Positions 5,856 to 37,900 of a stretch of DNA of 64,000 bases are shown here, in pieces. The stretch is from contig BTPG01000005.1 in assembly GCA_036245525.1 (NCBI GenBank), forward strand, positions 184,315,653-184,379,652, read 5' to 3'. The notes beneath the pieces are model-generated. The model searched no databases. It was not told the origin of the DNA and worked only from the letters and a program-made list of their open reading frames with translations. Numbering within the stretch: the stretch's first letter is position 1; every line of letters starts with the position of its first letter. The stretch is from Semisulcospira habei (taxonomy: Eukaryota; Mollusca; Gastropoda; Semisulcospiridae). Position numbers and translations under genes: made by a program.

Positions 5856-5950
5856 GTCATACCATCGGTAAGTATTTTTCAAAAAAATGCATTTTAATGA
5901 AAAATTCATTTGTTTTCTCAAAACACATTACCGATGGTATGACATTGTGG
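5856..5950. repeat. Internal complementary region of DIRS B
   Basis: Bases 5856-5909 are the reverse complement of the left end and 5910-5950 that of the right end, abutting with no extra base. Confidence 0.92.
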
Positions 5951-6065
5951 AATTCCGAAGAGGAGGCGGGTGCCGAAAAGACGCCCCTCCTGCCAACAGA
6001 CCAACCCTCAGACCCGCCCTCCCGGAGCACACTCCCGATAATTTTAGTTAAGATACTTACGGCGC

Positions 6066-11390: not shown

Positions 11391-11793
11391 GCAAAATAAA
11401 AAACGCGCGCGATGACGAAACGAACCTCATCGAATTCGAAAGAGTACAGCGCGTGCCTACGCTCGGCGCTCCTTCCCACCCTAGAGCGCCGGTCGAGGGC
11501 ATCCACCGAGATATTACCTGTCCATGGCGGCAAACGTTAGCAACCCACGTCTCAGTCTCCCCCGAAGTGGACCCACTGTCAGCTGGTTGCAGACACTCGT
11601 CGCCAGTCACGACCGGCCAGGCTCCGCAGTCTCGTCACAGCGCCAGTCAAGTGAGCACGAAGTCCCAACAGCTAACTCGTCGGCAAGTGAGTCCCCCAGT
11701 CGACGAAAGAGAACCGTCCCAGCAGAGAGCAATCAGTCCCACCGACTCAAGCTCCCCAGAACACAAGTTTCAAGTACACCGTCCAAGCTCACA
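11391..11793. other. DIRS B leader, part 1
   Basis: Sequence between B gag and the LINE insertion. It continues at 13832 after the LINE. No conserved ORF of B is seen; plus-strand reading frames here are antisense chance frames. The last 13 bases (GTCCAAGCTCACA, 11781-11793) are the 5' copy of the LINE target duplication. Confidence 0.7.
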
Positions 11794-13809
11794 GCAGTTA
11801 GAGAGGCGCTGAACTCAACCTGCAAAGACACTGTAGGGTTCAGGAAACACCACCACAAGGACTGGCTGTCGGCACAGACCCTGAAGAAGATAGAAGCGAG
11901 GAAGCAGAAGAAAGCAGCGGTCAACAACAGTCGCACGAGAGCAGCCAAAGTAAGGGCACAGGGGGAATACTCGGAAGCCAACCGCGAGGTGAAGAGGAGT
12001 ATCAGGGCAGACAAGAGGGCCTACACAGAAAGCCTGGCAGCAGAGGCAGAAAAGGCAGCAGGCAGCGGCAACATGAAACAGCTCTACGACATTACCAGAA
12101 GATTGTCGGGTAAGTATGGCCATACAGAAAGACCAGTAAAAGACAAAGAAGGCAAGCCTATTGCAGACAGAGCAGACCAACTCGACAGATGGGCCGAGTA
12201 TTTTGAAGAGTTACTGAACAGACCTAGCCCACCCGACCCCCCCGACATCCAGCCGGCAGAGACCGACCTACCCATCAGCTGTGACAGACCCAGCCGGGAA
12301 GAGATCAGAAAAGCAGTGGCATTTTTGAAGAATGGCAAAGCAGCAGGACCAGATGGCATCCCAGCGGAGTCTCTGAAAGCAGACCTAGAGACAACAGTTG
12401 AGATGCTGTACCCACTGTTTGGAAAGATCTGGGATGAGGAGGTGATGCCGGCTGACTGGAAGGAGGGGTACCTAATCAAGCTTCCCAAGAAAGGCGACCT
12501 CAGCAAGTGTTCCAACTACAGAGGAATCACCTTGCTGTCAGTACCAGGAAAGGTCTTCAACAGGATCATCCTAGAAAGAATGAAGAGCTCCGTTGACCCC
12601 CAGCTGAGAGACCAGCAAGCAGGATTCAGGAAGAACCGATCATGTACAGACCAGATCGCCACTCTCCGCATCATCGTGGAACAGTCTCTGGAGTGGAGCT
12701 CCCCGCTGTACGTCAACTTTGTGGATTATGAGAAAGCATTTGACAGCGTGGACCGAGAGACTCTGTGGAAACTCCTACGACACTACGGTGTACCCACAAA
12801 GCTCGTCCGCCTGATCAAGAGCAGCTATGATGGCATGACATGTCGCGTGATCCACGAAGGGCAGTTCACCAGAGAGCTCCAGGTCAGAACTGGTGTCAGG
12901 CAGGGGTGTCTGCTGTCTCCGTTCCTCTTCCTACTGGCCATAGACTGGGTCATGAAGATGACCACAGAGCACAGACGAAGTGGAATACAGTGGACACTGT
13001 GGACACAGCTTGACGACCTCGATTTTGCAGACGACTTGGCATTACTGTCCCACACTCATAAACAAATGCAGGACAAGACCACGAGGCTTGCTGACATCTC
13101 GTCCCAAGTGGGCCTCACCATTCACAAACAGAAAACAAAGACAATGAGGCTGAACGCAACCAGGGAAGAACCAGTCTTGCTTGCTGGCACCCCGTTGGAG
13201 GAGGTGGAGTCCTTCACCTATCTCGGGAGCATCATAGACAAAAAAGGCGGCACTGATGCAGATGTCAGAGCACGAATCGGTAAAGCCAGAGCAGCCTTTC
13301 TCCAGTTGAAAAAAGTATGGAGTTCCAGAGAGCTGTCACAACACACCAAAGTCCGGATTTTCAACTCCAATGTAAAAGCAGTTCTCCTATATGGAGCAGA
13401 GACATGGAGATTGACAAAAACCACAGTCAACAGAGTACAGACCTTCATGAACAGTTGCCTTAGAAGAATTCTGAAAATCCACTGGCCAGAGAAGATCAGC
13501 AACATCAGACTCTGGGAGAGAACAGAGCAGATAACAGCAGAGAATGAAATTGGGCGAAGAAGATGGGGATGGATCGGTCACAGTCTGAGAAAGCCAGCTT
13601 CCAGTATCACTAGGCAGGCATTGTCATGGAACCCCCAGGGAAAGAGGAAAAGAGGTAGGCCGAGAAACTCCTGGCGTCGAGACCTCCAAGCAGACATCAA
13701 GAGACTGGGAACCACCTGGAGTAGAATCGAAGGAGAAGCACAGGACAGGAGTTGCTGGAGGTCTCTCGTCGACGGCCTATACCCGGGTAGGGGTGACAGG
13801 CGTAAGTAA
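11794..13809 (+). pseudogene. RTE-like reverse transcriptase, N-terminally truncated but otherwise open
   Basis: The frame has about 670 LINE codons with no stop. It contains a Lys/Arg-rich linker, then RT blocks: [66 protein letters not shown] and the catalytic FADDLALL, followed by [23 protein letters not shown] and the C-terminal [15 protein letters not shown] block. The apurinic-like endonuclease domain present in the copy at 56.6 kb is absent because of 5' truncation at insertion. The frame is open further upstream to 11524, but that part is antisense to the DIRS leader and is not LINE coding. It cannot be autonomous. Confidence 0.9.
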
Positions 13810-13818
13810 GTAAGTAAA
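11794..13818 (+). mobile_element. 5'-truncated RTE-like LINE inserted in DIRS B leader
   Basis: Flanked by perfect 13-bp direct repeats (GTCCAAGCTCACA at 11781-11793 and 13819-13831). The 3' end is a short (GTAA)n tail, as in RTE-type elements. The body is strongly similar to the second copy at 57528-59535, starting within GCAGTTAGAGAGG; the endonuclease half is missing. Confidence 0.93.
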
Positions 13819-13907
13819 GTCCAAGCTCACAACCACCAAGGTCAGAAGACCGGTCCAAGATCAAAACGCTCAGCACGGACAGACACAACCTTCCTAGCGC
13901 TAGCTAA
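13819..13907. other. DIRS B leader, part 2 (begins with LINE target duplication)
   Basis: The first 13 bases repeat 11781-11793. The remainder joins the right terminal repeat of B. No gene seen. Confidence 0.75.
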
Positions 13908-14117
13908 GAACTAAACTGGGGGATGACGGGTATTCTCGTACCGGGTGGGAATAAGGGGAGACTATTCTGAATAGTATTCAGGCCATGGCCTGGTCTATGG
14001 CGCCCCACTCCTGCCAACACCCCCTTATACGGACACAACCAAATTTTGGCTAAAATTAGGCTAGCTAAGGGCTTTTCCACAATGTCATACCATCGGTAAT
14101 GTGTTTTGAGAAAACAA
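13908..14117 (-). repeat. Right inverted terminal repeat of DIRS B
   Basis: Reverse complement of the left repeat; identical over the shared part. Ends in GAGAAAACAA at 14117. Confidence 0.92.
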
Positions 14118-14657
14118 ACACGCTTTCAAGCAAGGAAGAAGGACCTGTACATGTGGCTACAACGGAATCTCTCAGTCTAGTTCCGCCCGGTAAGGTTGAG
14201 TTAGCAGCGCCCTTGTTGCTAATTCACCCCCGACCGGTCGCTAGAACCGGTCCTGCCGCCTGTACACTTTTCTCTTCCACGGCATAAAAACGAACCGCAC
14301 TAACGGTCACACTACGAGCGCCTCTGCTCAGTGCTACTGCATCCGTAGCGTCGGCCGAGGGCACTAACCACAAGCTACAATGCTTACCTGGTCATGGTAG
14401 AAAGAAGGAGGTTACCACCGTGAAGGACGGAGGACGAGGGCCCCCGAAAAAAGGCCGCAAAGTCCCGCCAAGGACGAGAAGGCACAGCCCGGTCGACACT
14501 GCAGCCGGAACAGAAGCCCACTCTGCAGCAGGAAGCTCACAAGCCAGTAGTAACCCGTCAACCTCCAACCACGAACTCGAAGAAGACAAAGTCGCGCGAG
14601 AACGAAGCCTGAACGGAGCTAGGTAGGGCATACAACCTTCCACAGCTCAGCGAAGAG
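14118..14657. other. DIRS A leader (5' side of A gag)
   Basis: This is A sequence displaced by the B insertion; in A it directly preceded base 5580. It contains no conserved protein. The minus-strand gag frame may have started in this segment, but I could not identify a convincing ATG. Confidence 0.65.
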
Positions 14658-14851
14658 ACAGAATGGCGAATCAGGTGACCGCGTTCCGGATATGGAGGGA
14701 AGGGAGGCTACCGTGGCTCTGCCTAGCAGATAGCGCCCCCTGATACCTTCCCTCCTTAAAGGCACACAACCTCAATTTTGGGCTAAAATTAGGCTAGCGA
14801 GACAGTATTCCTAACAGTAATGTCATCGGTAATGTTGTTTTGAGAAAACAA
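14658..14851 (-). repeat. Right inverted terminal repeat of DIRS A
   Basis: The inner 70 bases match 1-71 in reverse complement. It ends with GAGAAAACAA at 14851, the same terminal decamer as B. Confidence 0.88.
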
Positions 14852-15363
14852 ATGACACTGTTGACGCTTCGCACCGCATGCTAAAACATCACACCACATG
14901 CTAAAACCCTGTACATCTGTAAAATTCCAAAGCAACTTCACTGAAAAGTGACCTTGATATGCCAATTTTCCACTGGAATGCAAAGAATACTTCAATAATG
15001 TGATCACAGGGACCGTGTTTTCACTTCTCAGAAAGTTGTACTAAGTGGATGGCATGAAGTGGAAATAAAACTGAATCGACACAGCTAGGAAAATATGGCT
15101 TGAAATGTGTTTTCAGTGAACCATAGCAAATCAAATGCAGTGCAGACTAAAACACTGAAAAACAAAATATAATGAACGTACATGTAATACAAACACACAA
15201 ACTGTCACATACCGGTCCCGTGAACTTGAATCTGACAATGATTTCTGAAATGGTGAACACGGACAAAATGTGTCCTGGTCTGCGATTCTGGACCCTACAG
15301 CTTCAAACTCGAACAAGTCCAAAATCACTGGCCAGGGGCCAGTTGCATGAGCTTACTCCTGCA
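14852..15363. other. Non-coding DNA with no recognised feature
   Basis: AT-rich sequence between element A and the 53-bp array. I see no gene. A weak match to the 'ctggtctg.gattttggaccct.cagctt' repeat (see 18199-18267) occurs near 15273-15305. Confidence 0.5.
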
Positions 15364-15430
15364 CCAGCCACTAAGCAAGGTGCTCCGCTACAGTGCTCCG
15401 CTGTAGCGGAGCACCTTGCTTAGTGGCTGG
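15364..15430. repeat. Perfect palindrome, 30-bp arms, 7-bp loop
   Basis: Bases 15364-15393 are the exact reverse complement of 15401-15430; the loop is TGCTCCG. The right arm is also the first unit of the 53-bp tandem array, so the palindrome looks like an inverted first unit. Confidence 0.95.
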
Positions 15431-16150
15431 CATGGGACTAAGCTCGCTCATGCCACAGTGGCGCACCTTGCTTAGTGGCTGGCATGGGACTAAGCTCGCT
15501 CATGCCACAGTGGCGCACCTTGCTTAGTGGCTGGCATAGGACTAAGCTCGCTCATGCCACAGTGGCGCACCTTGCTTAGTGGCTGGCATAGGACTAAGCT
15601 CGCTCATGCCACAGTGACGCACCTTGCTTAGTGGCTGGTGCAGGACTAAGCTCGCTCATGCCACAGTGGAGCACCTTGCTTAGTGGCTGGCATAGGACTA
15701 CGTTCAGCAGTTCAGCGACTCGACGACCACACTAGGTCAGGGGACTGATGATGATGATTGGACTACGCTTACCCACGCCACAGTGGAGCACCTTGCTTAG
15801 TGGCTGGCGCAGTACTAAAGCTCACTCATGCCACAGTGGAGCACCTTGCTTAGTGGCTGGCGCAGGACTAAAGCTCACCCACGCCACAGTGGAGCACCTT
15901 GCTTAGTGGCTGGCGCAGGACTAAAGCTCACTTACGCCACAGTGGAGCACCTTGCTTAGTGGCTGGCGCAGGACTAAAGCTCACTTACGCCACAGTGGAG
16001 CACCTTGCTTAGTGGCTGGCGCAGGACTAAAGCTCACCCACGCCACAGTGGAGCACCTTGCTTAGTGGCTGGCGCAGGACTAAAGCTCACCCACGCCACA
16101 GTGGAGCACCTTGCTTAGTGGCTGGCGCAGGACTAAAGCTCACTTACGCA
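15401..16150. repeat. 53-bp tandem array
   Basis: About 14 units each containing CACCTTGCTTAGTGGCTGG and a GCCACAGTGG end. An early group reads 'catgggactaagctcgctcatg', a later group 'gcaggactaaagctcac', so two subtypes are clustered. A 60-70 base unrelated segment interrupts the array near 15705-15775. Confidence 0.92.
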
Positions 16151-16572
16151 ACTGCCCCCAGGACTCAAATAAATTATCACATCAAATCACAGAATCAGCA
16201 GTCCTCCGTTCTAAAAGTGTGACCATAACTATCTTTGGTTCTGATCACTCCTAATTAACATCCACTCCTAACAGCCAGCCAACATCCACCTGTAAAAGAG
16301 ACAGATCATTGTGAGCCCCCCGCAGGTCGGGTGGACCCACCAAAGCATAAGCCTCTTGGTGGCCTTATGTACATGTGTATAGTGCATTTGGCGGGATAGA
16401 CAACCCTGGTTTTTAGCTTCTGTCTCCGTTCAGAGGCACTTTCCCGTACAACAACAATAAATACCATTCAGCATTGATAGACCGAATAGGATTTGAAAGA
16501 CGGTCGTGTACAGGCTGTTGGACATCGAAGCGTGGAGGACTGCATGGTAACAAAACACTTTTCTGTGCTACT
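16151..16572. other. Non-coding DNA, no feature recognised
   Basis: Unique-looking sequence between the array and a hairpin element; possibly a worn retroposon (gtgagccccccgcaggtcgg...), not assignable. Confidence 0.4.
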
Positions 16573-18535: not shown

Positions 18536-19942
18536 CTGCAAAAAAAAGAAATAAAGCGTTAGCAACAAATATCAGAAATTTAGAAACAGATGGAATACAA
18601 GGACACAGCACAACCTGTTTTGAGTGATCACCTGTCATTAAAGACCATCATTTAAGTGCCTGTCGCCATCCTGAGGCTGATTTATAATTTAAAAAAATAA
18701 AAATTAAAAAAAACACTTATTGTTCTAAGAAGGCTACATTACAGATTAGGAGATAGATTACGCATTCTAGTTCAAGGGTGGTGCCAGAATAGTTTGGCGC
18801 CTCAGGCGCCAAGCTATTCTGGCACACCCCTTGAACTGTCATAGTCAATTTTTATTTAAGCAATGGGTGTATCAGGATGAAAAGGGTTAATGACGAGGTG
18901 ACACTTTTTGCTCTTGAGAGCACCTGACCTAGAAGACCATTTTTTTTCTTGTCCAAAAAGTGGCTGCCCAAAACAGGTCCTACTCCAAAAAGTGGCTGCC
19001 CAAAACAGGTCCTACTCCAAAACGTGGCTGCCCAAAACAGGTCCTAATCCAAAAAGTGGCTGCCCAAAACAGGTCCTACTCCAAAAAGTGGCTGCCCAAA
19101 ACAGGTCCTACTCCAAAAAGTGGCGGCCCAAAACAGGTCCTACTCCAAAAAGTGGCGGCCCAAAACAGGTCCTACTCCAAAAAGTGGCTGCCCAAAACAG
19201 GTCCTACTATAACTAAGCTTTCTTTTCCGATCAACTCTGTTCATTGAACAAAAGACACAACACTACATGGCACTGGCGTGAACGCGCTTACCACAGAGAT
19301 GCCAAAGTGTATATGCGCAGCAGTGATGTAGATACAGTACGCCCACAAGACGTACACCTCCCACACCCCCAGCTGACCCAGGGGCTGAACGACGCACAAC
19401 AGCACCGCGGCTGCCAGGGGAACCAGGTGAATGTTGAACAGCTCACATCGTGTGTTAGACATTTGAGCGATGATCAGCCAGCACTGGGAAAGAGAAGAAC
19501 GCATTTTTGTAAACGATGCCCAATGTGAAAGCAATGAGTGGAATCTGTTAAGACAGGAACTGTTCACAAATCTCATGACCAATGAACCAAATGCATGTAC
19601 ACAGACGATGCAAGCAAAGTACCCAACGGAGAAAGAAACACGCTTAGAAAAGACGGGTACAACACAATTTATTAATATTTCGGGTAAATACCCTTTGTCA
19701 AAATAGACAAACAAACAAACAGAGAGATTAGCCGCTACTTATCTTCATTGGCAGAAAGAATGTGGCAACTGAAGGAGGTGACGTAAAAGAAAGAAAAGGA
19801 AGAACAAAAGTGCGTAAAAAGTAAAAATGACGTCAACGAAAAATCGTAAGAGAGAGACTCGGAAAGAACCTGAACACGAGAGACAAGAGTGTGTGCAAGC
19901 ACATGCAGGAGCGAGCGAAAGAAAAGGCGTGTAGATGAGGCC

Positions 19943-19982
<40 letters not shown>

Positions 19983-22900
19983 GGAGAGAGAGAAAGAGAA
20001 GGAAAACGAACGGGGAGTACCCTTGGGCACGAAGTAGGCGAGTGTCTAATACACAAAGCCTGCTAAACACCAACCCGAAGGCAAACTTTATATCACCTGT
20101 CGGGCGCCGGGTCTCCGGCTCACGGTTTGATACGCGGTTTTGGGGCGGGGCGATCGTGTGCATCCCTTGGGGATGTACGTGGTCGTCTTGTTGCGTGCCT
20201 GTGTTTTTTTCTGTGTGCTGGTGGGTGCCTGTTGGGTGGGGTTGGAGGCTCTGGCTTTTTTTTTTTTTTTTTCCTCTTTCCTTCTACCTCTCTCCCTCTT
20301 TCTCCCCCCCCCCCCCCCCCCCACCCCCTTTACAACTTCTCTCTAGCCCTCTTTACGCTTTTTCCTTTTCTCTTAATTCCCCTTCCTCCTTTCCCCCCGC
20401 CCCCTTCTCTCTCTCTCTCTCCCTCTCTCTCCCCCCTATTTTTTGAGTTACCCTTGAAGACGGTTTCACAACTACCTAATCTCCACTTATACCAATATTC
20501 TCTTACTGAATTTGATTATTTGCTTTGTTTTCATGACTTATTACTTGTTGTGTACCGTGCTAAATGCTGGGGTTTTTTTCCCGGGGTCCTCCCGTTTTTC
20601 CCCGAGGTAGTCCTCAACTTGAAGGTGATATAAAGTTTGCCTTCGGGTTGGTGTTTAGCAGGCTTTGTGTATTAGACACTCCGCCTACTTCGTGCCCAAG
20701 GGTACTCCTCGTTCGTTTTCCTTCTCTTTCTCTCGCTCCGTCTCTCTCTCTCTCTCTCTTTCTCTGGCCTCATCTACACGCCTTTTCTTTCGCTCGCTCC
20801 TGCACGTGCTTGCACACACTCTTGTCTCTCGTGTTCAGGTTCTTTCGGAGTCTCTCTCTTACGATTTTTCGTTGACGTCATTTTTACTTTTTCCGCACTT
20901 TTGTTCTTCCTTTTCTTTCTTTTACGTCACCTCCTTCAGTTGCCACATTCTTTCTGCCAATGAAGATAAGAGCGGCTAATCTCTCTGTTTGTTTGTTTGT
21001 CTATTTTGACAAAGGGTATTTACCCGAAATATTAATAAATTGTGTTGTACCCGTCTTTTCTAAGCGTGTTTCTTTCTCCGTTGAGTACTTCTTTGCATAT
21101 TACACGCTTGGCAGTCACCTTTTTGATCTGGATTGATGCAAGCAAAGTAATAAAGAAAGAGGGCTGAGCAATTAAGCACCTTTACGGAGAAAAAAATATG
21201 CGAATCGTGATTACCCCATTGGCTGTCGGCAGCAGTTTATGTCACGATGATTCCTGCGACAGAAAGTGCTGCCACAGCCAGAGGGTTAACCCTTTTCATC
21301 CTGATACACTCATGCTTGAAATTAGTTTGACTGTGCCAGTTCAAGGGTGGTGCCAGAATAGCTTGGCGCCCGAGGCACCAAGCTATTCTGGCACCACCCT
21401 TGAACTGAAATGCTTAATCTATCTCCTAATGTGTGATGCAGCCTTCATAGGACAAAAACAAATTTTACAAAATGGGTTAAGGCACAAGTGAGTCCGCAGG
21501 CAGAATGGTGAGGAACGTTTGATGACCAGTCAGGACGCTCAGGGAAACCTCCGCCACATCAGAGAAATGCTGCTGCTAAGCTAGTGCGCTATTCTACCAA
21601 GAGGCTGTAGTCTTTACGTACTGATTAATCCTTCGGCTGTCGGCAGTGGGTTTTTGTTGCGATGATTCCTGCAGGATGTCAGGGTGTTGTTATTCCGGCC
21701 GGAATCATCGCGACAAAAACTGCTACCGGCAGCCAAAGGGTTACAAGCTGAGCTTAATTTCCATGCGGTTATTTTTTTTTTGACGCATAGCTAAGTTCTT
21801 AAAATCACAGAACAGTACACAAATAAATGCACCAAGATTTATCAGACTGAGCTGCAACATGAACAAAAGCATGCACCAATGCTTTGGCTGTCAGCAGTGG
21901 TTTAACCCATATCCTACGGAGGCTAAAAGCTTCAAATTTGTACACTGCCATATGCAAGCTGCATTATAATACTTACAGATAAGGATATAGACCAGTGGCT
22001 TTAGTTCAAGGGTGGTGCCAGAATAGCTTGGCGCCTAGAGGCGCCAAGCTATTCTGGCACCATCCTTGAACTATTTTAGTCACACCTATTTCACACGCTG
22101 GTGTATTCCGAATGATGAGGGTTAACATAGTGACAAAAGCTGCTACCGACAGCCAAAGGGTTAAACTCTATGTCATTTGGGAAGTGGCACCCACAGCTAT
22201 ATTGGAGAAGGCGGTGCCCGTGGTCCAGTAAAAAAGTCGTGGCTGTTTATCCACAATATCATAGGATGAACACTCCGCCCACAGCAACATCAGGCCAAAT
22301 AAAGTAAACGTGGACACCAGAGGTCGCATTGCTTCAGACAGTGGCCGCATTTTCCCTGTCCTCTTTGCGTAAGACCTGCACACAAATAAAAACCATAAGT
22401 AAATGTGTGTTGGTTTATGATTTTTGACCTTACAGCTAAAAAAAAACCCCACGTTCTTCTTCTTCTCGAACGCAGTTACACTTGGAGTTTGGCTCTCAAA
22501 ATGAAATCTGTGGTCTTCTGTAGCGCCTCCACAGGCCCGTACAGTTTATCTTGTAGAGTGACTGGCTTCGGCCATATCTCCTCCCTCAGCAGCTGGTGGT
22601 TCCCACAGTCCTGGAGGATGTGCTCTGTGGTCTGCTCTGCTTCTCACAAGGGCACAGGGGAGATGGCACGAGGTGGAAGCGTCTATGCAGGTGGAAATTG
22701 AGTCGGTTGTGCTTAACGTCTTTTGTCCACCATGAAGGTGATTTCAAAGATGTGGCAACGAAAAGAGGCCTGTACAAATTTTTACCACAGCTGGGTTCGA
22801 ACCCACGACCTTTTGGACAAGAGTCGAACACTCTACCACTGAGCCACCTAGCTCCCCCCTTGCAGCTCTAGGGCATGAGATCCAAACTGAAAGACCAGCA

Positions 22901-25900
22901 CACATAGAAGTGTACGCCAAAGACAAAGAGGTTCTAAGTTAAAAGATGGTAAGATATTTGCAAAAACATACATATAACGATGCCAAAGTACTACCAAACT
23001 TTCCTAAAAAAGAAAATTAAAAGTGCGTAAAATAGCTTAATAAAAGTAATGCATCTGGTTTATGACAAGAGTTTTTATACATGTTTTGGTACTAGAAGTG
23101 CAAAACTTTTCACAAACACCATAAATAATGGCCAAACAGATCCATCGCATGCAACCCCCCCCCTCCCCCCCCCCCCCACTCCCCGACCCCACCTTCCAAG
23201 TCAGATGCAACAAGTACGTCACCTAAGGAAGGTTTGTCCTAGAAAAAGAGATAACATCTTAAACAAAAGTTGCAAATTCTTTCAAAGAATAAATCAACTC
23301 ACTGGTAAACATTCCAGAATGTAAATGGAAATAGCCCAAAGAAACCCGCTGAAACAGAAACAAAATGGCATGAACCATAACCCACAAAGTTTCTTCTATA
23401 TGAGCCATAACCCACAATATGTGAGCTGTCCTCGCTGTCAAGGGTCTCTACCTGTTGTCTTTGACCTGATTCTGATGTTGAAATATCTCCTATTTAAAAG
23501 CCTAGCAGATTTGGCAATGCGCCAGTGAGCTCGATCTCTAAGGGGCACGGAGCATACACGTCATTGCTTTGGAAAACGTTTGTCAAGACGTAATTTTAGT
23601 TTTAACGTAATTTTATATTTTACGTGATATGAGTTCAACTTTAGAAGAAACTACCAAGTAAGTAGGAACAAGAAAGGCAAAACCCTTATGGCTCACATGT
23701 ATGACCGATCCACACATGTCTGACAATAAGTAAAGGGATGGCTTCTGCACTAACAAATTACATGTTTTCTCAAAATTTAATCAGTTTTCACACATCTGTG
23801 AAATCCCCGTGACCCTAGACCTTTGCGATGAGTTGACTAAATTAGTGTCCTATGTACATAGGAAGGTCTTATCATCAGCTACCTTTGTGCCAAATTTGAT
23901 TGAAAAGTTTGCAAAAATGTTGATAACTACAATTATTGGCATTTTATACACATTTGTCAACCTCTTGTGACCCTCGACCTTTTCAGAGGGGTCATTCAAA
24001 TTAGTATGCATAGATAGGTCTTACCATCAGGTATCTCTGTAGCAAGTTTGGATTTGAAGTTGTGAATAGTAATTGAGAAAAAAAACATTTCTTGTCAAAA
24101 TATGGCTATTTTTTACCTATTTCCTGAGCTCTTGTGACCCTTGACCTTTCTGAGGGGTCATCCAAATTAGTATGCATAGATAGGTCTTACCATCAGGTAT
24201 CTCTGTAGAAAGTTTGGGTTTGGAGTTGCAAACAGTAATTGAGAAAAAACATTTCTTGTCAAAGTTTCTATTTTTTTTAAACCTATTTCCTGAGCTCTTG
24301 TGACCCTTGACCTTTCCGAGGGGTCATCCAAATTAATATGCATGGATAGGTCTTACCATCAGGTATCTCTGTAGCAAGTTTGGGTTTGAAGTTGTGAGTA
24401 GTATTTGAGAAATTCATTTTTCTTTAAAAGGTATTTTTTCGAAAAATACTTACCGATGACATGACTACCAGGAGTGTCCACTCCTTGCTCAATTCTAGCC
24501 TAAGAACCCGTTGTGTAAACACAACCCGGGAGGCACTCAGGGAACCCCCAGAGGGACCGAGAGTTGTCTCCCGCTCCTACCCACCAGCCCTATTCACCTG
24601 TGAACTCCAGTCACGAAATTAGGCTCACCAGCGGCAAGCGGGGCAGGTGGGAGGGTCCTTCGAGTCATGTCATCGGTAAGTATTTTTCAAAAAAATACCT
24701 TTTAAAGAAAAATGAATTTGTTTCTTCAAAAACATTACCGATGACATGACTACCAGGAGAATGCCGAACAGGAGGAGGGTGCCGCACCCCCAGATGGTTT
24801 TCTCTAGGCTCATGGCCCCCTCCTCTCTTCCGACACTCTGCACTCCCTAATAGGTGCATACCTACGGCGCCTGTGGCGCCGGGAGGGAGTGTTGTGCCGC
24901 CGTGACGTCCCCCACCAAGGCGAGGTTGTCTCGCTGCCCTGCCAGATCCCGTAGATAGAAGCGGGCGAAAGTAGATTCTGATCGCCAGCCCACCGCAGCC
25001 ACGATGTCCTTGACAGCGCAGTTCCTGTCGAAGGCTACGCTCGTGGCCATGGCCCGTACTTCGTGCGCCCGAATCTTTAGGCTCTTCGCTCCCTGAGGGG
25101 AGAGATCGACATATGCTGAGCGAATCACCCAGCGAAGCCAGGAAGAGACTGTCTGTGCCGTAATGTCGTTTCTTCCTGTTTTTAAAGGAAGGAAGAGGCG
25201 AGAGCGTCCCCTCCGGACGGCTCTGGTTCGTCGCAAGTACACTCTGAGGGCTCGTACAGGATCTTGTTGCCTGGTCTCACTGGGGAAGTCTTTCCCGCGT
25301 AACGGTCGTAAGGTGATAACCTGTGGCGCCGTCAGTGGAGACCTAGTCTTGGCAATGAAGGCAGGGTCGGTCACCAGTTGGACCGAGTGGTCAGCTCGAA
25401 ATTGCAGGCATGTACGCCGGACTGATAGAGCGTGTATCTCACTTACTCGTGCCGCGGTGGCAAGCGCCAGCAGGAAGCAGGTCTTCCGCGTCACATCCGC
25501 CAGCCTGGCCAACGGTAGTGGTTCGAAACGTGGTGAGTTTAGCCAGGTAAGAACCCATGGTAAAATTAATTTTTCTCTAAAATGTATTTTTTCGAAAAAT
25601 ACTTACCGATGACATGACTAACAGGAAATAGTCTACTTGCTTACCAATTTTAGCCTAAGACCCAAAGGGTCCCCCCCAGGAGGCTCTCGGGGATCCCTGA
25701 CAGGGATGAGAGAGCTTTCGGGGATCCCTAACAGGGACGAGAGTAGCCTCCCCTGCCCATCCGGTCAGGCGCCAGGTGGTGTCTCCTTTAGCCAGTTGTC
25801 TACGGAGTTACCAGCGGCAAGCGGGGAGGAGGGAGGGACCTCCGAGTCATGTCATCGGTAAGTATTTTCCGAAAAAATACATTTTAGAGAAAAATTAATT

Positions 25901-28900
25901 TGTTTCTTCAAAACACATTACCGATGACATGACTAACAGGAAGAATGGCAAAGAGGAGGAGGGTGCCGCACAATCCCTTTTAGAAACCTCTTCAGGGACG
26001 AAGACGGCCCGTCACTCCTGATCACCCACTCCCGACAATTTTAGCGAAGTGCCGCCTAAGCGCCGAGGGCGCCTGGAGGGAGTGTTGCGCCGCAGAAGTT
26101 GCCCACCAGCGTAAGGTTGTCGCGCTGGACTGTAAGGGCGCAGAGTAGAAGCGGCAATGGTAGATTCCCGCCACCCCACCGCCGCCACAGTGTCCTTAAC
26201 CACACCGGCGCGGCGAAGGCGAGACGTGCGGCCCTAGCGTGCATTGCATGGGCGCGGATCCTCAGTGCCTCGGCTCCCTGTGGGGAGAGGTCGCGATAGG
26301 CGGACCAGAATACCCAGCGGAGCGAAGAGGAGAACGTTTGGGCTGAGAAGCCGGTTCTGCCAGTGGTCGGCGGCAAGGGACGAGACCGTCCCCTCCGCAC
26401 GGACTTGGAGCGCCGCAGGTAGATACGAAGTGCCTGCCCCGGATCTTGCTGCGGAGTGCCCCGAGGAACCGGGTCGTGTAAGCGGCCGAGCGGCGAGGAC
26501 CGGAGGCGCTGTCAAGGGAGACCTAGGCTGAGCGAGAAGGAAGGACCCGGGAGTAGCTGAACGGAGCCATCCACTCGGAACTGCAGGCCGGCGGGGCGAG
26601 ACGAGAGCGTGTGGAGCTCGGTGACGCGGGGCGCCGTGGCGAGGGTCATCAGGAAGCAGGCCTCCGAGTCACGTCAGCAAAGCGGGCCAGAAGGAGCGGT
26701 TCAACGGTCCGAAGTCAGTCAGGGGAGGACCAGGGAGGTCCCAGCGCGGGCCAAGTGGGCGGAAGACCGGACGCTGCACGCCGAAACGCGCCATAAGGTC
26801 GGGCAGGTCCTTGCAGGCGCTGGGTCAGGACGGCCGAGGTGACGGTAGGCGTCGGCGATCAAGAGACCCCTCAAGAGAGCTGCTGCACCAGAGGGGAGCC
26901 AACCTAGGTCTTGGACGAGCCAGAGAAGAAGTCCATGAGCTGAGGAGTCGTCAGGCCGACAGTGGAGAGGCGGCGGTCAGAGCACCAGGCACGAAGCACG
27001 CCACTTTCCCTCGTAGACACGTCTGGTAGGTCTGCGGGCTGAAGCGATAGCATCCGCTGTTGCACTCGAGAAGCCTCCAGCAGAGAGAGCTTGCCACACA
27101 ATCGCCAGGCGTGCAGGAGAAGTCGCTCGGGGCAGGGGTGGAAGAGCGGCTATCGGCGCTGTAAGAGCATCGGCGGGAGGTGGGAAGAGGGAGGGTGAAC
27201 CTGTGGCGAGACTGAGAAGGTCGGAAGTCCGCGAACCGGTCCGGGCGACCGGCCACCAGGAGAAGGACTGCGTTGCATACCCGGAGGCTGAGCAGGACTT
27301 GAGGACCAGGACCGCCGGAGGGTAGGTGTAAGCGACCAGTCCGTCCCAAGGGATCGAAGGGCATCGACTGACCAGGCCAGAGGTCGGGAACAGGGAGATG
27401 AAGCGGGGAAGCCGGAGGCTCCACTTCGTGGCGAAGAGAACAAGGGGGGAGTCTCCCGACGGGCGCAGAACCAGCGAAGGATGTCCCAGCGAAGGGCGCA
27501 ATCCGTGTGAAGAAGCTGCCTCCGTCGCAAGAGGTAGACTGTCAGGGCGAACAGGTGACGTGGACTGTGGCGGGCTGGGAGGGAGAAGACGCTGTCCTCG
27601 CACCAGCGAAGGGGGCGATAGAGGAGGAAGCAGAGGTCGGGAGAGCGGGTTCCTCCTGCGTCTGAAGGCAAGCCACGAAGAGGGGTTGTCGGAAGGACGA
27701 GGAGGTCCTGTGTCCGAAGATCGTATCGCCAAGCGCAGAGGGCCTGCCAACTGCAACCAGTCCCAGCGGGTTGACGTGCCGCGAAGTCCGGTTCGCGGGC
27801 CAGCGGCCGGCGGACGAGCGGAATTCGGGAGAAGGAGAGCGCCCCAACGGTCGAGACCGGCAACGACGCAGAGAGAGACGGGCAGCGGCGAGGTCAGGGG
27901 GAATCCGGGAGCCGAGCCAAGAATGTCCGTCCAGCGAAGCCGATGTGGCGCAGCACAGGAGAGATCGGCACCAGGGTAGAGAGATCGCCGGAGGACGGCC
28001 TCCAGAGGCGGAGTACAGAAGACCGAGGGAAGGAGATCAGCCGCCGCACTCATCAGGAGGAGGAGCTGGAGCCGCAGTTAGGTGGGGAGCGCCGCGTCCG
28101 CAACTACCCTCGGGCTAGAACGGCAAGGACTGGATCCGAGGCTCGTGAAGACGCACCAAGTCGCGGTCGGTCACCCAATCCATACCCAGGTGAACGAGTG
28201 GCGAGAGGTCGGACTGTAGGCGCTGACCAGGGCGCCCAGGCGAGCAACCGGAGGAGGAGAACATCGCTGCCCTACGAAGTGGGACCGCTGACTGATACCG
28301 CAGACGCAGGTCGACCCAGGAGGAGAACGTCTGACGGAAGAACAAGGTCTCGGGCAACCAAGGCATCCACGATCCACGCAAGGGCCCAGGGCTGAGGGAG
28401 AGACCACACCGGAGAGGCCGGGCTGGAAACGGACCCGTCGACGGCAAGCGAAGACAACAGCGGGGGCGGGAGGCATGGGGACGCGTGGAAGCGAGGGGCA
28501 GATCCCGGCTGGCGGCGACGACCAAGGGCCGAAGGCGAAGCGAAGGGTCCGAGGCGGGGGGAGCCGCGCCGAGCGACGAGCACCAACGCAACATCTCAAG
28601 GCAGAGCGGAGACCTGCGCGCGAAGGGCGAGGGCCTTGGTCGGAGTGGGCGGGAACTCAACCACACGGGTGGCGCTGGGCCCACAGGCCTAGAAGGGGTC
28701 CTAAGGAGACTACCAGGCAGGGCCGAAGAGCGTGGGAAGCCACAGGAGCACGGTACAGCTGCGACGTCGCATCAGGGGAGATGGTCAGGGAAGGAGCCAG
28801 GCCGCCACGAACGAAGGAAGGCAAGGGGCGGAGGGTTCGAAGCCACGCGGAAGATCCACTAGAGCTGGGAGGTGTAACCGCAAGGACGGGCGCCGGCAGA

Positions 28901-31900
28901 ACCACCAGAGGCAGCGAGCACGAAGAGGAGCAAGTGGCCAGCGAACCGGGGAGCCGAAGGCTAAGACGCCAGCAGGCCAGCGGCGAACGCAGGACGCCGA
29001 GTCATCCACCGAAGAGGGTCGGGGAGACGCTGGAGGCGAACGGTGCAGAGAGAGGGGAAGAGGGTGTCCCGAGGAGAATGACAGCGCCGAGCAGAAGGCG
29101 AAGGTCGGCAGGGACACAGGAGGGCGTCAAGCGGGCGGGCGACGAACGTCGGGCGCCGCAACTATCCAGGCGACGAGGGCGAAGACGTCGATCCCCACTT
29201 GCACTGGGTGTACCCAAGGGGCACCCATCCACGTGTGAACCGAGCGCGAAGTAGCTTCACTTCGGTGAACAGACGAGAATCGGTGAACACGTGGAAAGGC
29301 CGTAGGCGCCAGGGGAAAACGGCCCGAAGTCCCGAGGTATATGAAAGACGATCCAGACGCAGTGCCCGAGGCTCAAGGAGGGGGCACCGTAGCTGGCTGG
29401 GCGACCCGACGAAGGAGTCAGTGGGTAGGAAGGAAGGCCATAGGGCCGACTAGGGCACCAACCGGCGATAAGGGTCGCGGTGCCCGGGGCTCAAGGAGGG
29501 GGCACAAGCAGATAGGCGACTCGCCGAAGGAGTCAGCGGGCCCAGGACCGAGGCCGAAGTAAGAACAAGGCGACAAGGTCGCGGTGCCCGGCTCAAGGAG
29601 GGGGGCACATAGTCGGCTAAACGACTCGCCGTAGAGTCAGCGGACTTAAGCTGAGGCCGAAGGCCCAAGCGTGAACTAATTGGCGACAAGGCCGCGGTGC
29701 CCAGGGTTCAAGGCGGGGGCACAGCGGCTCGCCGGAGGAGTCCGCAGGCGTAGGAGGCCAACGCGTCCACAATAGGCGACAAGGTTGCAGTGCCCGGGGC
29801 TCAAGGAGGGGGGCATGTAGCCGGCTTGGCGACTCGCCGGAGGAGTCAGCGGGCTGAGCAGGACCGAAGGCCGACGCGTAGACTAGTTAGCGACAAGGTC
29901 GCGGTGCCCGGGGCTCAAGGAGGGGGGCACGTAGCCGGCTAGGCGACTCGCCGGAGGAGTCAGCGGGCTTAGGAGGGCCGAAGGCCGGTGCTTAACTAAT
30001 TAGCGACAAGGTCGCGGTGCCCGGGGCTCAAGGAGGGGGGCACGTAGCCGGCTTGGCGACTCGCCGGAGGAGTCAGCGGGCTTAGGCCGAGGCCGAGCGT
30101 CAACTTCTTCTTTTCCTTTTTTTTTTTTTTTTTTTTTTTGCATGTAACAGGCGACAAGGTCGCCGTGCCCGGGGCTCAAGGAGGGGGGCACATAGCCGGC
30201 TGGGCGACTCGCCGGAGGAGTCAGCGGGCTTAGAAGAAGGGCCGAAGGCCGACGCTTAATTAGCGACCAAGGTCGCGGTGCCCGGGGCTCAAGGAGGGGG
30301 GCACGTAGCCGGCTTGGCGACTCGCCGGAGGAGTCAGCGGGCTTGAGGTTTGGCCGAGGGCCGACGCGTGAACTAAGGCGACGTGGTCGCGGTGCCCGGG
30401 GCTCCTTTTTACGGGAGGGGGGCACGTAGCCAGCTTGGCGACTCGCCGGAGGAGTCAGCGGGCTTAACGCGTCTACGAAAGAGCTACAAACTTACCAGGG
30501 ACGATAGGAGTGGCTATCCCATGTCGGAGGGCCGCTTGAACAATCCCACCGTGCCGTGGAAGGTCCCAAGGAAGGCGGAAGGCGCGGGTCGCTCGGCAGT
30601 GGAACACCGGAGTAGAGACCAAGAACCTCCAGTCAAGCAGGGCAGCCAGCGCAGCCGATGACAGAGGAGCAGGTGGCACCCAGTCTACAGTGTGGCGGAC
30701 ACCAGGCCACTGGAAGCCGCCGTCCTGGGCAGAAACGCACTTGGTACTGCAACACATACCCATACATGAAAGGTGATGGGCGGCGGGCAACTAAGTCCGC
30801 CAGTTAAAGCTCCGAAGTAAGTAACGAGCGAAACTCACCGTGAAATGCGGAGAGAAAACAAACAGAAGTCCGAGCCAAGCACGACGTCCGGCCCCGCCGG
30901 GGGAGACGTAGGCAGTGGCCAAGACTTTACCTTTTCCTGGCGGAATTGCAGCGTGACGCAGCACAAAGCACCGGACACTAGGTCACTGTTAGTCGCCGAA
31001 CTGGGGAGAGGCGCACTTGGTAACTGCAACCCAAACCCAAACATGAAAGGCGACCGGCGGCGGGTAACAAACCCCGCCATTTAAAGCTTCGAAAATTAAG
31101 AGACACACGAAACTGACTGTAAATGCAAAGACAAACAACAGTAGCTCGAGCAAAGCCCGACGTCCGGCCCAGCCAGGCGAGACGTAGGAAGCGGCCGAGA
31201 CTCCACCTTTCCATGGCGGAACGGCAGAGTGACGAAGCACAAAGTACCGGACAATAGGTCACGGGAGGTCGGCGTACTGGGGAGAGGCGCACTAAGTAAC
31301 TGCAGCCCATACCCAAACATGAAGGCGACCGGGGGCGCCATTTAAAGCTTCGAAATCAAGAAACACTCGAAACTCACCGTGAAATGCGGAGAGAAAACAA
31401 CAGTAGCTCGAGCGAAGCCCGACGTCCGACCCAGCCAGGCGAGACGTCGGAAACGGCCGAGACTTTACCTGTCCCTGGCGGAACGGCAGGGAGACGAAGC
31501 ACAACCACCGCGCGACGGGAGCCTAGAAGGTTCCAGGGCCAGCCAAGAGCACGAGGCACAGACGAGGGCTAGCAGAGAAGACGGAGGCCACGCCAGAAGC
31601 AGAAGCCGAGAGGCTAGGCGAAGGCAGGCCGGTAAGGGACGGGCGAACCGTACACAGTCTTTCCAAGGGTCAGAGGCTCAGGTAAAAGCGTCCGAACGCT
31701 AGCAGCGAAGTAGACAACTGGCTAAAGGAGACACCACCTGGCGCCTGACCGGATGGGCAGGGGAGGCTACTCTCGTCCCTGTTAGGGATCCCCGAAAGCT
31801 CTCTCATCCCTGTCAGGGATCCCCGAGAGCCTCCTGGGGGGGACCCTTTGGGTCTTAGGCTAAAATTGGTAAGCAAGTAGACTATTTCCTGTTAGTCATG

Positions 31901-34900
31901 TCATCGGTAATGTGTTTTGAAGAAACAATCCCAGCGGGGAAGAAGAGAGCGAGAGGCAGGCCTTTGTAGTCCGAAGTGTGACATAAGATCTGCCAGGTCC
32001 TTACACGCGCCGGGGTCCGCGCGGCCGAGGTGCCGGTAGGTGTCGGCAATCATCGCGAGATATCCCCGAATGGTAATAGGGGCCAGTCCTTGGTCTCCGA
32101 AGAGCCAGAGGAAGAAGTCCGCAAGTTGGGGGTTTGTCAGTTCGGTGGGGGAGAGACGACGGTCGCTGCACCAGGTACAGAGTACCCTCCATTTCCCCTC
32201 ATAGATACGTCTAGTCGAGGGCTTGCGAGCTGTAGCGATCGCTTCCACTGCAGCACCCGAGAAACCTCTAGCTGAGAGGGCTTGCCGCACAACCTCCAGG
32301 CGTGTAGCAGTAAGCGTTCCGGACAGGGGTGGAACAGCGCCTGGCGTGGCTGCTTGAGCATAGTGCGGGGCGTGGGGAGCAGTAGAGGAGGGTGCGTGGC
32401 GAGGCTGATCAGGTCGGTGGACCAGGAACGAGTCCAAGCGAACGGGGCGACCAGGAGCAGGATCGCATTGGTTCCTCGCAGCTTTAGGAGGACTTTGGGG
32501 ACAAGGACTGTCGGGGGAAAGGCGTACGCTATGAGTCCGTCCCCGGGAATGGATAAGGCGTCGACCGCCCAAGCCAGGGGATCCGGTACTGGGGAAACGA
32601 AGAGGGGAAGCTGGTGATTCCACCTCGTGGCGAACAGGTCCACCATCGGGGTCTCCCAGTGAGAGCAAATCATCCGGAAAATGTCCTGGCGTAGCGTCCA
32701 TTCCGTGTGAATGAGCTGTCCTCGGCGAGAAAGGGAGTCCGCTAAAACGTTCAGGCGACCGGGAATATGGCGAGCGCTGAGAGTCAGATCGCGGTCCTCG
32801 CACCATCGCATCAATCGGAAGAGTAGCATGCATAGATCGGGTGAATGAGTTCCTCCCTGCTTCTGTATATACGCTACCACTGTCAAGTTGTCCGAAAGGA
32901 CGAGAAGATGCTGGTGTCTGAGCTGCACTTCCCAAACGATGATGGCCTGCCACACCGCTTGCAGTTCCAACCAGTTGCTGTGTTTGTCCGCGAACTCCGG
33001 AGGCCAGAGGCCGGACGTCGTGGTGAACTGAGGAAGCAGGTGGGCTCGACTCGCGTCGACACACAGGGAGAGGTGCGGGGATGGGGAGGAAATGGGGACT
33101 CCCAGAGCCAACCAGGCTCTGTCGGTCCACCGTAAAAGGTGGGGGCGTACCAACGGGGACACGGGGACGATCGTGGTCAAGTCGCCCGAGGAAGGACGCC
33201 AGAGCAGTAGGAGATGAAGTTGTAGCGGTCGGGAGTAGAGACGCCCGAGGGGGATAAGATCCGCCGCTGCGTTGATCAGGCCCAGAAGCTGAAGCCAGAC
33301 CCTGGCGGGGGCTGCCTGTTGCTGATCTACCAACGCGGCGAGAGCGGACAACTTCACAATCCGTTTCTCTGGCAAAAGTACCCTGTTGCGGTCCGTGACA
33401 AACTCCATGCCTAAATGGATGAAGTGGCGCGCCGGCGTGAAGTCCGACTTCCCGGTGTTGACCAGGAAACCCAACCGGTAAAGCAGCTGTAAAAGAACGT
33501 CCCTGTCTGCCGCAAGCGCGGTCTCCACCTGATTTCTCAAAAGAAGGTCGTCGAGATAATTCGAGGTCGGACTTGACGACGACTGCCTTGCCTTGGCCAC
33601 TACAGCATCCATGATGCGGGTGAAGGCCCAGGGGCTGAGGTTGAGACCGAACGGCAGGGCGCGAAACTGGTAAATCACTCCTTCGAACGCGAAGCGCAGG
33701 TACTTCCTGGCAGAAGCGTGCATGGGGACATGTAGGTAGGCGTCGGACAGATCTAAACTGACCGCGTAGTCCATGGGTTGCACCGCCGCACGAAGAGCCC
33801 TGGTCGTCTCCATCCGAAAGGAAGGGGCCGCGATGAAGGCGTTGAGCGCCGACAGATCTATGACTGGCCGCCACTTGCCGCCAGGTTTGGGGACCACAAA
33901 CAGTCGGCTGTAAAAGGCGGGCGAGTCCGGACGCTGCACTATCTCTGTGGCCTCCTTTGAAAGGAGAGCCACGACTTCTCCTCGCAGAGCGGCGGCCTTG
34001 AGGGCGTCGGACGGAACCTCTGTCCAAAGAGGAATGGAGCGCAAGGGCGGAGGAGAGCGGAACAAGATCCGTAATCCTCTGGTGACTACGTCCAAAACCC
34101 AGGGCTCGTCTCGAAACAGCGAGCGCCACTCCTCGCTGAATCGTGCTAGCCTCCCGCCGACTGGAGCCCCGACGATGGTCGGCGGGGGCGGAAATGGGGA
34201 CAAGTCAGATGGCCCGCCCGCGCCCAGGGCGACGGGCGGGACGGGGCCAAGCGGGGGCAGGGGCGCTAGCTAGGCCAGGGCGACGGAAGGACGGGCGACG
34301 GCGCGGCGCAGCTCGTGGTGGGGCAGACGGGTCCGCGGTGACACGTTTCCGGGCCCGCAAGGAGCGCCCCAGGGCCGTGCGGGCGGGATGAAAGCGCTGC
34401 TTGACAGTCTTGCGAGCCCAACGGTCGGAGTTGGAGTCCTTCACCGTCTGCCAAGTATCCCCGAAGAGCAGAGACCCTCCCAGAGGGGCCCGACGTAGCT
34501 GAGTACTCAGGTCGACCGGCATACCACTGCGGAGGTCGCAGTTAGCCGCAGCCGCCATCGCGTTGACCGATGAGTGATAAGCAGCGCAGTTCCCAGCCTC
34601 TGCCATGAGTAGCAGGTCTCCCAGGAGGGGAGACAAAGCAGGTTGCCAAGCTTCCTCGAGACGTCAGATGAAAGCCTGAGTCAGCAAGTCCAAGAAACCG
34701 GAGCAGGCGAGCGTGTTCCGGACCAGCGACGCCGTCCTATCCAGTCCCCGTGGAAAGGACCGTTTCAACATAGAAGCCCCTCCGGCTTGCAACAGAGCGG
34801 CGGGATCCACTGGAGGAAGCGGGCAGAGGAACGACTGCGAATGGCCGGCGTACCAGTCCTGCTGAAATGCGATGTCCAGAGCGGAAGGCCATCTCCCGTC

Positions 34901-37900
34901 CGCGAAGAAGTCCGAGTTCCGAGTCTCCGCATGCAGGTGAGACGAGAAGGCGTCCCGCAGATCCAAAAAACTAGCCGGCTGTGGGAGGGACTTGAACCTC
35001 TTAACCGTCCTATCCGCGTCCACGAAGGCGGAAATCTTCCTCTTCACAGGAGGTGAAGCTGGACAAACATCCTCCGGTAAGGCGGCGGCGATGAGCTTGG
35101 CTGCTCCGTCCAGCGCCAGCCGCGTGTCCATCCGGGAAGAAGAAACCTGTCTGACGGAAGCTGACACACTGGAGGCTGAAGAGGGAGAAGCTGAAGAACG
35201 GCTAAGACCTCCAAGTAACCAGTCCGAAGCATCCTCCGGTGCCAAACTGAGGGTGTCGAAGTCCCGCTGTCCGGAAACCGGCGACCGAAGAGGGCGACGA
35301 GGGCTCCGAGGCCGGGAATCCCGTCGGAGAACCGCAGCGGACGAAGACTCCCTCCGCAGTGGAGAGCGGTAGTCTGAACGATGCGGTGAGGACCTCCTGC
35401 GAGCCGAAGGCGGATCCCGACGAGGAGAACGGCTGCGACGAGAGGGAACGGAGCGGTGAGTACGAGGAGGGGGGGAAGTGGCCGGTCGCTGGGACGGGAC
35501 GAGCGGGAGTCCAACCGAGAGGGGGGACGCGAAGAAGGTGAAAACCGTCTGCGGCGAGGTGAGTCCCGGTGCGACGAGCGATGAGGCGAGAAGTTCCTCC
35601 TACGATCGTGCGAAGGAGAGCGGAAACGTCGAGCAGAACCCCTGTACCTACGTTCTTCACAACCAGGAGGCTCCGGACGAGTGCAAGTATGTCTCTCTGA
35701 ACCAGGCTCTTGGGAGAGGCGGGTTACTGGCCGGCCAGGGGACCTCCAGCGGGATCCCGGCGGCTTCCTCAGAGACGAGTGGGGAACGACGGTGGAGGAG
35801 GGACGCCACGAGCGTCCCACCAAACCAGGCTCTTGGGAGAGGCGGGTTCTTTCCACCAAATGTGTCCGGGCACGCTCTCGAACGGAGGCGGTCTTGACGG
35901 TCGAACTCCCACTCCGTGCACTAGTCCCTTGATTACTCAGTGGCGTTATCTGCGTCGGATCCCGTTGGTCTCGCACGTCCGGTGCCGGAGGCACAGCGGA
36001 AGGCGTCTCGGAAATCTTCAAGGTACCCGTGAGGGTAGAAGGCTCTCTCCTATAAAAGTTCCATAGATTAGACCACCGCAGTTCCGGCCATGTAGCACAG
36101 ACGTCACACGTATGGTCGGACGCACACCCAGCGCAGGGGAGACAGACTGCATGTTTATCCGACGGCCACTGGAAGCCTCCGCATTTTGTGCATGTCATCA
36201 GTAGGCCACTGCAACACACAAAACATGAAGGCACTTGGCGAGCGTCCACCAATCACCCCGTTAAGCTTTAGGCCCCCAAGCTACTGTGATGTTATGCACC
36301 CGATTAACCAACGTACGGTCACCTGCCATCAACATTTAATTAAAACCACGGCGGAGGGAAAACAAACCCTGCCGGGACAGGTGAGTATCCAAGCCTTCGT
36401 CATAACGAGGGGTGTCTAACCGAAAGCCGAAAAACGTTAGGTATGGCCGAGATACAGTAACGTGACTCACCGCTCGCATCTGGTAATGGCGCGAAATCCC
36501 GCCAAAACCGGCGCCAACATTCTTCAGCTAATCAGGCCACCAAACAGAGGTAAAAAAAAAACAACCGAGGGAGAAGCGACGCAAAAAGCAAGCTGCTCGT
36601 GCCTGTGCCCCGCCCGGGCAACCAGCCGAGGGCCCTCTAACTACCTTACCTGTCAGTCGGAGAGGTACGAGAAGGAGAAAGCTCCATGACACCCGCAGCC
36701 CGACCGGCAAAGCCAGAGAGGAAACCCTTGAACAAGACCGAAGCTGCAGTCGACCAACGTCGCACGCGTAGAATCCCAGGCCGGCGAAGACGAAGCAAGC
36801 AAGGCAGACCGAACCGGTCGAAAAACTTCTAAGTCCAGAGGCTAGAGACAACACGTCTGAACGCGTGAGCCTAAGAAGCGTGACTGGAGTTCACAGGTGA
36901 ATAGGGCTGGTGGGTAGGAGCGGGAGACAACTCTCGGTCCCTCTGGGGGTTCCCCGAGTGCCTCCCGGGTTGTGTTTACACAACGGGTTCTTAGGCTAGA
37001 ATTGAGCAAGGAGTGGACACTCCTGGTAGTCATGTCATCGGTAATGTTTTTGAAGAAACAAATAAACATCTTTTGTCAAAATATGGCAATTTTGGACCTA
37101 TTTCTTGAGCTCTTATGACCCTTGACCTTGCCAACGTTAAAGTTTACCATGGACGACAGCGGACAGACGACAGATGGACGACCACTGGCCCAGAACATAC
37201 TCACTTTTGCTTTGCATGTGAGCCAAAAAGCACTGTCAGGGGAGAGAATTATTGTACATTATAGACCAATGATCATAGATCTACTTTGGTCAAAGGACAG
37301 AAAAAAAGGATAGGAAAGAGGGGTGTGCTAAGTAAATGAGTGGAAGCAATGCATATGGAAACCTTCAACTTTGCCTTCCAGAGCTGAGAAGCAATGGTGA
37401 CCAAACTAGAATTTCACGGTGCAATTTCCAGTCTCAATAATATGTGTGAAGGGAGGTTGACTTTACCTAGATACATGATATCCTACTGTACATGCTCTTC
37501 TGACAGCGCGTTGATGTGTGTGCGTGCTAAATTTGTCATTTAGAGTATTGCGTAGATATCTGTGTGATGACAAAATTTCTGCTTTTACAACACCGTCACT
37601 GTCCGACTTTCTCCAGAAGTCGAGTTTTTTTTACTTTTTAAAACATTTCTTCATAGAATTATTTTTTACTGAAAAAGTTGAACAGATACACAGCTGGCTA
37701 ATGAACTCATCCAATGTCTTTCTCCAATCCGGCTATATCCAAATCAACAAGTGAACATGATAAAAATAACGGATTCTAATGTGGGTCAACCGACTTCCCA
37801 TAAGCGGTCACTTAAATCTTCAATGAGACATCCAATTTCAAAATGCGCAGAGGAGCTCCTAGGCACCCCCTGAATGAAGCAACTCCCATAATTTGAAGCT

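Follow-up and report, generated by a model that had tools for sequence, protein, structure and literature searches.

DIRS1-like retrotransposons carry inverted terminal repeats (ITRs), whose core is strictly complementary and whose outer part diverges, and an internal complementary region (ICR) in which both ends are joined over a short junction. According to the available text of Piednoel et al. 2011 (PMC3266345), they measure 3974–6283 bp, and the junction of BfDIRS2 is the two bases AA. The replication of DIRS elements has been modelled and is not fully proven (PMC5633606). In Xenopus tropicalis, 36 of 75 DIRS-like families show some degeneration of repeats and/or open reading frame (ORF) domains, and in X. 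laevis 13 of 20 have interrupted ORFs or incomplete repeats; the accessible part of that report does not describe these families as non-autonomous or as mobile when dead (PMC9210276). SIRE of Trypanosoma cruzi, about 0.4 kb long, is a truncated non-autonomous relative of VIPER, and its available description leaves open whether it is mobile or a remnant (PMC6681497). Here we analysed a 64,000-nucleotide stretch (the window; C5:184315653–184379652) in the 1.98-Gb assembly of Semisulcospira habei, in which four minus-strand DIRS elements form two nested pairs, B in A and D in C. We regard element D (25563–31928) as a copy belonging to a non-autonomous DIRS family that is both large and young, with a probability of about 93%. 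This family has a sister autonomous family beside it, to which the host element C belongs.

In ITR and ICR design and in length (6364 bp), D resembled the DIRS1-like elements, and it shared the AA junction of BfDIRS2, whereas most elements listed in PMC3266345 have a three-base junction. The ITR cores at the 3′ (left) end, 25603–25803, and at the 5′ (right) end, 31710–31910, differed at 0 of 201 positions. Outside the cores, the left terminus (25563–25602) and the right terminus (31911–31928) were matched by the ICR (25845–25942, minus strand): positions 25563–25619 were 98% complementary to 25845–25901 (57 nt), and 31886–31928 were 100% complementary to 25900–25942 (43 nt). The ICR, placed by this complementarity and by an alignment of the four ICRs, was the reverse complement of both termini joined via an AA overlap, the circle junction. 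The same AA was present at both D/C joints, and the outermost AA dinucleotide was common to D and its target, which explains why the earlier note had placed D at 25565–31928. Compared with A and B, the recombinase of C lacked only these two shared bases, and within the window, for D only, integration had caused neither loss nor duplication of target sequence beyond them. None of the non-coding parts of a DIRS element was missing from D. The terminal repeats identical over about 200 bases and the clean joint in C, both described in the earlier note, were thus borne out.

Unlike DIRS1-like elements, D coded for nothing, contained two tandem arrays and had no recognisable gag. DIRS1-like elements encode a reverse transcriptase-RNase H, a methyltransferase and a tyrosine recombinase; of such proteins D had only remnants, on the minus strand: a tyrosine recombinase with many frameshifts (26086–27171; tblastn with the B and C recombinases, and alignment) and a reverse transcriptase-RNase H (RT-RNase H) whose similarity faded toward its 5′ end (27000–29148; tblastn and alignment). 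Deletions and codon changes were counted in an alignment against A, B, and C; columns below 650, where D was poorly alignable, were omitted from both counts, and columns 2016–2300 from the codon counts. Across columns 650–3185, D had 42 deletions, 37 of them not a multiple of three (24 of 1 nt and 11 of 2 nt among the 42), plus one 7-nt insertion, whereas A and B had no indels and C had one in-frame 12-nt gap and no frame-breaking indel. The earlier claim of indel-broken genes in D therefore stood for RT-RNase H and recombinase, and failed for gag, which was unrecognisable rather than broken (best tblastn E = 0.019). The expected place of gag was occupied by array 1 (29348–30489, minus strand; units of ~114 nt), also found in family copies, and array 2 (30696–31504, minus strand; three units of about 276 nt). 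D was 6364 bp long against 6290 bp for C without D, and a length constraint on the D family is possible.

No conserved ORF was found in the D family: seven D frames were tested in 19 copies, each was open in at least 9 and at most 18 of them, and a hidden conserved protein was rejected. For two ORFs of D, the scored candidates from the protein database included no relative at E ≤ 1; copies of D may still be present in that database. When D was compared with 95 related RT proteins, none of the best 15 of the 95 was closer to D than to A–C. No methyltransferase family occurred among the Pfam matches, and no further test was aimed at a methyltransferase. A strongly folded repeat unit was also rejected, with z values of 0.54, −1.60, and −0.67 for three array-1 units and −0.93 for an array-2 stretch.

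The genome was examined by similarity searches whose figures rest on the top-scoring places. With the left 601 bases of D, all 40 scored places (D included) matched at 99–100%, the initial pass having flagged 3975 candidates. For a 30-base word taken from the defunct RT-RNase H region, at least 400 exact places (192 + 208) were counted, and for a second dead-coding word 176; the reversed control gave 0 for each. When viral contigs were scanned with a 17-base end word, one contig matched. The best-scoring 20 of the 39 places other than D were fetched, and all 20 copies were of D type. Sixteen of them had all 42 deletion sites in common with D; copies L011, L016, L027, and L029 shared 41, 38, 41, and 41, the remaining sites being missing from the copies, and not one of the 20 had a filled-in site. 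Private rearrangements in L011 and L016 inflated their substitution counts and upset the alignment, so neither copy was used for the tree or for counting singletons and ORFs. The right end lay within the fetched stretch in 17 of the 20 (poorly matched in L019, with 6 of 43 positions different); 15 of these 17 were 6036–6355 bases long and two were shorter (5295 and 4986). Their ITR cores were 0 or 1 substitution apart, two copies having two gaps each, and array 1, for which both anchors were found in 17 of the 20, spanned 1042–1689 bases.

Eight further copies were taken in map order: on contig C1, the first ones to contain the exact 30-base word. They covered 38–41 deletion sites each; five shared all of these and three (L041, L044, and L045) all but one, which was filled in. 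These three constituted a second non-coding subfamily. Divergence was 6.7–7.4% between the subfamilies, 0.3–1.8% within the first (10 copies) and 0.7–2.5% within the second (3 copies), and diagnostic changes nested in the first subfamily as groups within groups among 19 copies. The ancestor from which both subfamilies descend had therefore lost its coding capacity already, and each has multiplied since then. Numerous copies with one and the same dead interior are what a non-autonomous family would be expected to have. The earlier note had proposed that D was already non-coding when copied, and had looked to other copies with its ends, indels and internal repeats for proof; such copies exist, and the fear that D might be the only one was unfounded.

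The last flank base was A in all 20 D copies, and the right-hand W of the target was A in 13 and T in 3 of 16. Four or more of the 20 retrieved copies (L010, L013, L021, and L023) were located within or next to other DIRS sequence, which agrees with the self-targeting described for DIRS-1 (PMC5633606).

According to the model in the available text of PMC5633606, most of one terminal repeat is absent from the DIRS transcript and rebuilt in copying. ITR identity is therefore a fair clock, and it bounded the change of D after insertion to about 0.75% per copy, in agreement with the recent arrival claimed earlier. C is older than D because D sits inside it. A core without difference over 201 positions, set against 42 deletions and an older host without a frameshift, indicated that D was dead before it landed.

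The codon positions pointed the same way. C and D were sisters, with 36 AB|CD patterns against 18 and 13 for the alternatives (codon positions 1–2; p = 0.0007). At second codon positions, D had 70 unique changes against 16 in C in RT-RNase H (432 sites) and 34 against 7 in the recombinase (288 sites), whereas at third positions the counts were 38 vs. 43 and 30 vs. 30. Branch lengths of D and C were accordingly 0.269 vs. 0.059 at second positions and 1.06 vs. 0.97 at third positions. By this comparison, the D lineage would have evolved without constraint for roughly 0.2 substitutions per site, an approximate figure since third positions are near saturation, and the D family had been non-coding long before D inserted. 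Over the same period the ICR of D hardly changed, with 2 unique changes in 96 sites (C 1, A 3, and B 7).

C (24410–37063, minus strand) is interrupted by D. The 3′ part of its recombinase (24862–25562, minus strand; Pfam, tblastn, and alignment) kept its frame as far as the joint with D, and its RT-RNase H and the 5′ part of the recombinase followed at 31929–34203 (minus strand), with an open frame at 32137–34203 (RVT_1, E = 4.5e-22; alignment) and no frameshift. The open RT-RNase H and the recombinase cut only by D had been read correctly before; that picture of C has to be corrected in one respect, as its gag (34352–36252, minus strand; tblastn) was broken as well, with homologous parts in different frames and stops in all three. 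The ICR of C (24663–24760, minus strand) equalled that of D at 91 of 102 aligned positions, and the left end of D differed from the C end at 5 of 65.

With the RT-RNase H of C, all 65 scored places (C included) matched at 98–100%, with 54489 first-look candidates; 63 of the 65 had no stop and two had one TGA. Eight C-type loci were returned, one of them C itself (L030), and six (L032–L037) included the 3′ end. In these six, stretches of 996 and 771 aa were open, and the copies differed from one another at 0–2 of 2076 bases, which shows the C family to be active now or to have been so until very recently. Over 65 bases, their ends had 0–4 differences from the C end and 5–7 from the D end. L031 was 33–35 substitutions away from them and had no such end. 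The C copy in the window differed from one family copy at 22 of 2064 bases and lacked 12 bases; with D also cutting its recombinase, this particular copy is not the helper. The last flank base was A in all six C-family copies with an end. The two families thus had coding sequences that were sisters, ends that were nearly identical and A as the last flank base. The D family differed in having arrays, which were not seen in C, and in lacking the open RT-RNase H and recombinase frames of the C family. The cis-acting ends of D-type copies were similar, not identical, to those of autonomous elements that share their genome.

These likenesses suggest that the C family is likely the helper of the D family, and we infer that the latter is mobilised in trans by the former. 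D-type RNA would be reverse transcribed by C-type RT-RNase H, the ICR that it carries would serve to complete its ends and so yield a circle closed over AA, and a C-type tyrosine recombinase would insert this circle at A-AA-W sites. D would need in cis only its ITRs and ICR, perhaps with its length or the 5′ arrays.

The composition of D was examined for traces of this history. The observed/expected ratio of CpG was 0.94 in D and 0.94–0.96 in A–C, against 0.59 and 0.60 in two other parts of the window. On the D branch, change at conserved CpG was mildly elevated over that at other C/G sites (C>T 8/55 vs. 8.7%; G>A 7/55 vs. 4.0%), whereas 51 of the 79 C>T/G>A singletons of resident copies were in CpG. 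The old decay of D therefore, for the most part, did not come from residence in the chromosome.

The decay also differed between the strands. On the sense strand at codon positions 1–2, ancestral A had been lost at 71 of 186 sites and T at 53 of 301 (p = 7e-7), and on the D branch A>T changes (31/224) far exceeded T>A (2/345). Among singletons, the A and T rates were 26/422 and 19/776 (p = 0.002); A was not clearly above C+G (97/2039; p = 0.22), which is inflated by CpG change. The 5′ non-coding sense strand was also poor in A relative to T (0.158 vs. 0.281 in element A, 0.142 vs. 0.314 in element C, and 0.130 vs. 0.370 and 0.154 vs. 0.285 in two pieces of B), while fourfold sites of A–C gave no consistent A deficit, with less A than T in three of the six sets. 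Avoidance of start and stop codons was rejected as the cause of A loss, with counts near first-order expectation (ATG 17 vs. 13.1, TAA 1 vs. 3.0, TAG 12 vs. 12.2, and TGA 26 vs. 31.6). We read the asymmetry as a copying-error signature, the alternative being selection on the RNA. Sense-strand A was low in most of the D interior, at about 6–20% per 400-base bin, with a minimum of 6.4% at 28400–29149.

The following fuller account is offered tentatively, and we would put it at somewhat less than even odds: the D family would have lived for a long time as a parasite of the C family, keeping only its ends and circle junction, staying near the helper's length through arrays replacing gag, and carrying the DIRS copying-error signature, the loss of sense-strand A relative to T.

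Before the genome was searched, identical ITRs around a decayed interior would equally have fitted a single old relic revived once by chance trans-mobilisation, or one whose ends had been refreshed by gene conversion. A one-off is refuted by the at least 400 and 176 exact word matches and by the existence of two non-coding subfamilies that differ by about 7% and each contain closely related copies; moreover, D retained its CpG (0.94), although long residence should cost CpGs, as the singletons of resident copies show. This explanation is now very improbable. Decay after insertion, which would leave broken frames just as observed, has even less in its favour: the ITRs allow only about 0.75% change, the older C is free of frameshifts in the homologous stretch, and other D copies carry the same deletions. 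The earlier note was right to dismiss it. Equally negligible is the suggestion that the indels arose as mistakes in sequencing or assembly, a doubt raised in advance and encouraged by the size of 35 of the 42 deletions (1–2 nt). The indels are common to copies inserted at separate places, such indels are absent from A, B, and C on the same contig, and D had unique changes at 16% (RT-RNase H) and 12% (recombinase) of second codon positions as well.

A different question is whether the helper was another DIRS family, with ends closer to those of D. The differences between D and C in the ends (5/65) and ICRs (11/102) leave room for it, and the ICR of A was nearly as close to that of D (90/103). 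Against this, C was the sister of D among A–C (36 vs. 18 and 13; p = 0.0007), and the D and C families had the same last flank base. We consider another helper rather unlikely, less so by far than the explanations above. Several points weigh against a non-autonomous family mobilised by the C family. The count of exactly 400 for the first word is perhaps a lower bound. The 20 fetched copies were the best-scoring and hence biased toward D-like sequences, and the eight map-order copies depended on an exact 30-base word; in three of these eight, one deletion site was filled in. The second subfamily comprised three copies only, with ends outside the fetched stretch. The helper was picked by similarity alone, and the genome may hold a DIRS family nearer to D, as the survey covered only the best-scoring places. 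The right-hand W of the target rests on D copies, the C family having given the last flank base only, and the movement of copies was deduced from sequence comparison.

Non-autonomous LTR elements of the LARD/Dasheng type have a long non-coding interior between terminal repeats and are moved by a relative; they are LTR elements with an integrase, not with an ICR and a tyrosine recombinase. SIRE is like D in being a non-coding relative of a tyrosine-recombinase retrotransposon, whereas D is full length, of DIRS type and represented by recent copies (comparison limited to the available text of PMC6681497). No mobile non-autonomous DIRS1-like family was described in the literature searched, although most subscription papers and Repbase were outside its scope and novelty is not proven; nearest, as far as the accessible texts go, were SIRE for VIPER and the degenerate Xenopus families, which are not discussed there as mobile. 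A large natural family that kept its ends and ICR and lost every gene points to the parts required in cis, implies that DIRS proteins can act in trans on a large scale, and provides a protein-free record of copying errors.

The other pair in the window consisted of A (minus strand), which is cut by the window edge and extends from before position 1 to 14854, and B (about 5579–14118, minus strand), nested in A. B cuts A near the start of gag, and the 5′ region of A picks up again at 14119. The divergence of terminal repeats, which had been called for in the earlier note, was 0/201 in D, 1/166 in C, 0/192 in B and 0/71 in A, the last limited by the window edge. The word TTACCGATGACATGACT, with up to three mismatches, occurred 15 times at the ends and ICRs of A–D, against 0.08 expected from shuffles. 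The RT-RNase H of A had one in-frame TGA at about 2284–2313, where B and C have a tryptophan codon. Within B, a LINE frame (RVT_1, DUF6451) was found at 11524–13809, and the segment 11794–13810 was 95.6% identical to 57531–59536.

A tandem satellite with a 166-base unit flanked C at 23940–24409 and 37060–37129, and C was apparently inserted in it. Two more tandem arrays, with units of about 53 and 32 bases, were located at 15405–16152 and 18920–19271. A large inverted repeat of fold-back form occupied 19617–21090, its arms (19617–20098 and 20623–21090) being 95% identical over 483 bases. Finally, a family of hairpin-like palindromic repeats of about 70–110 bases (TTCAAGGGT...ACCCTTGAA) was found at 16654, 18769, 21338, 22002, 38245, 39353, 40622, and 45425.

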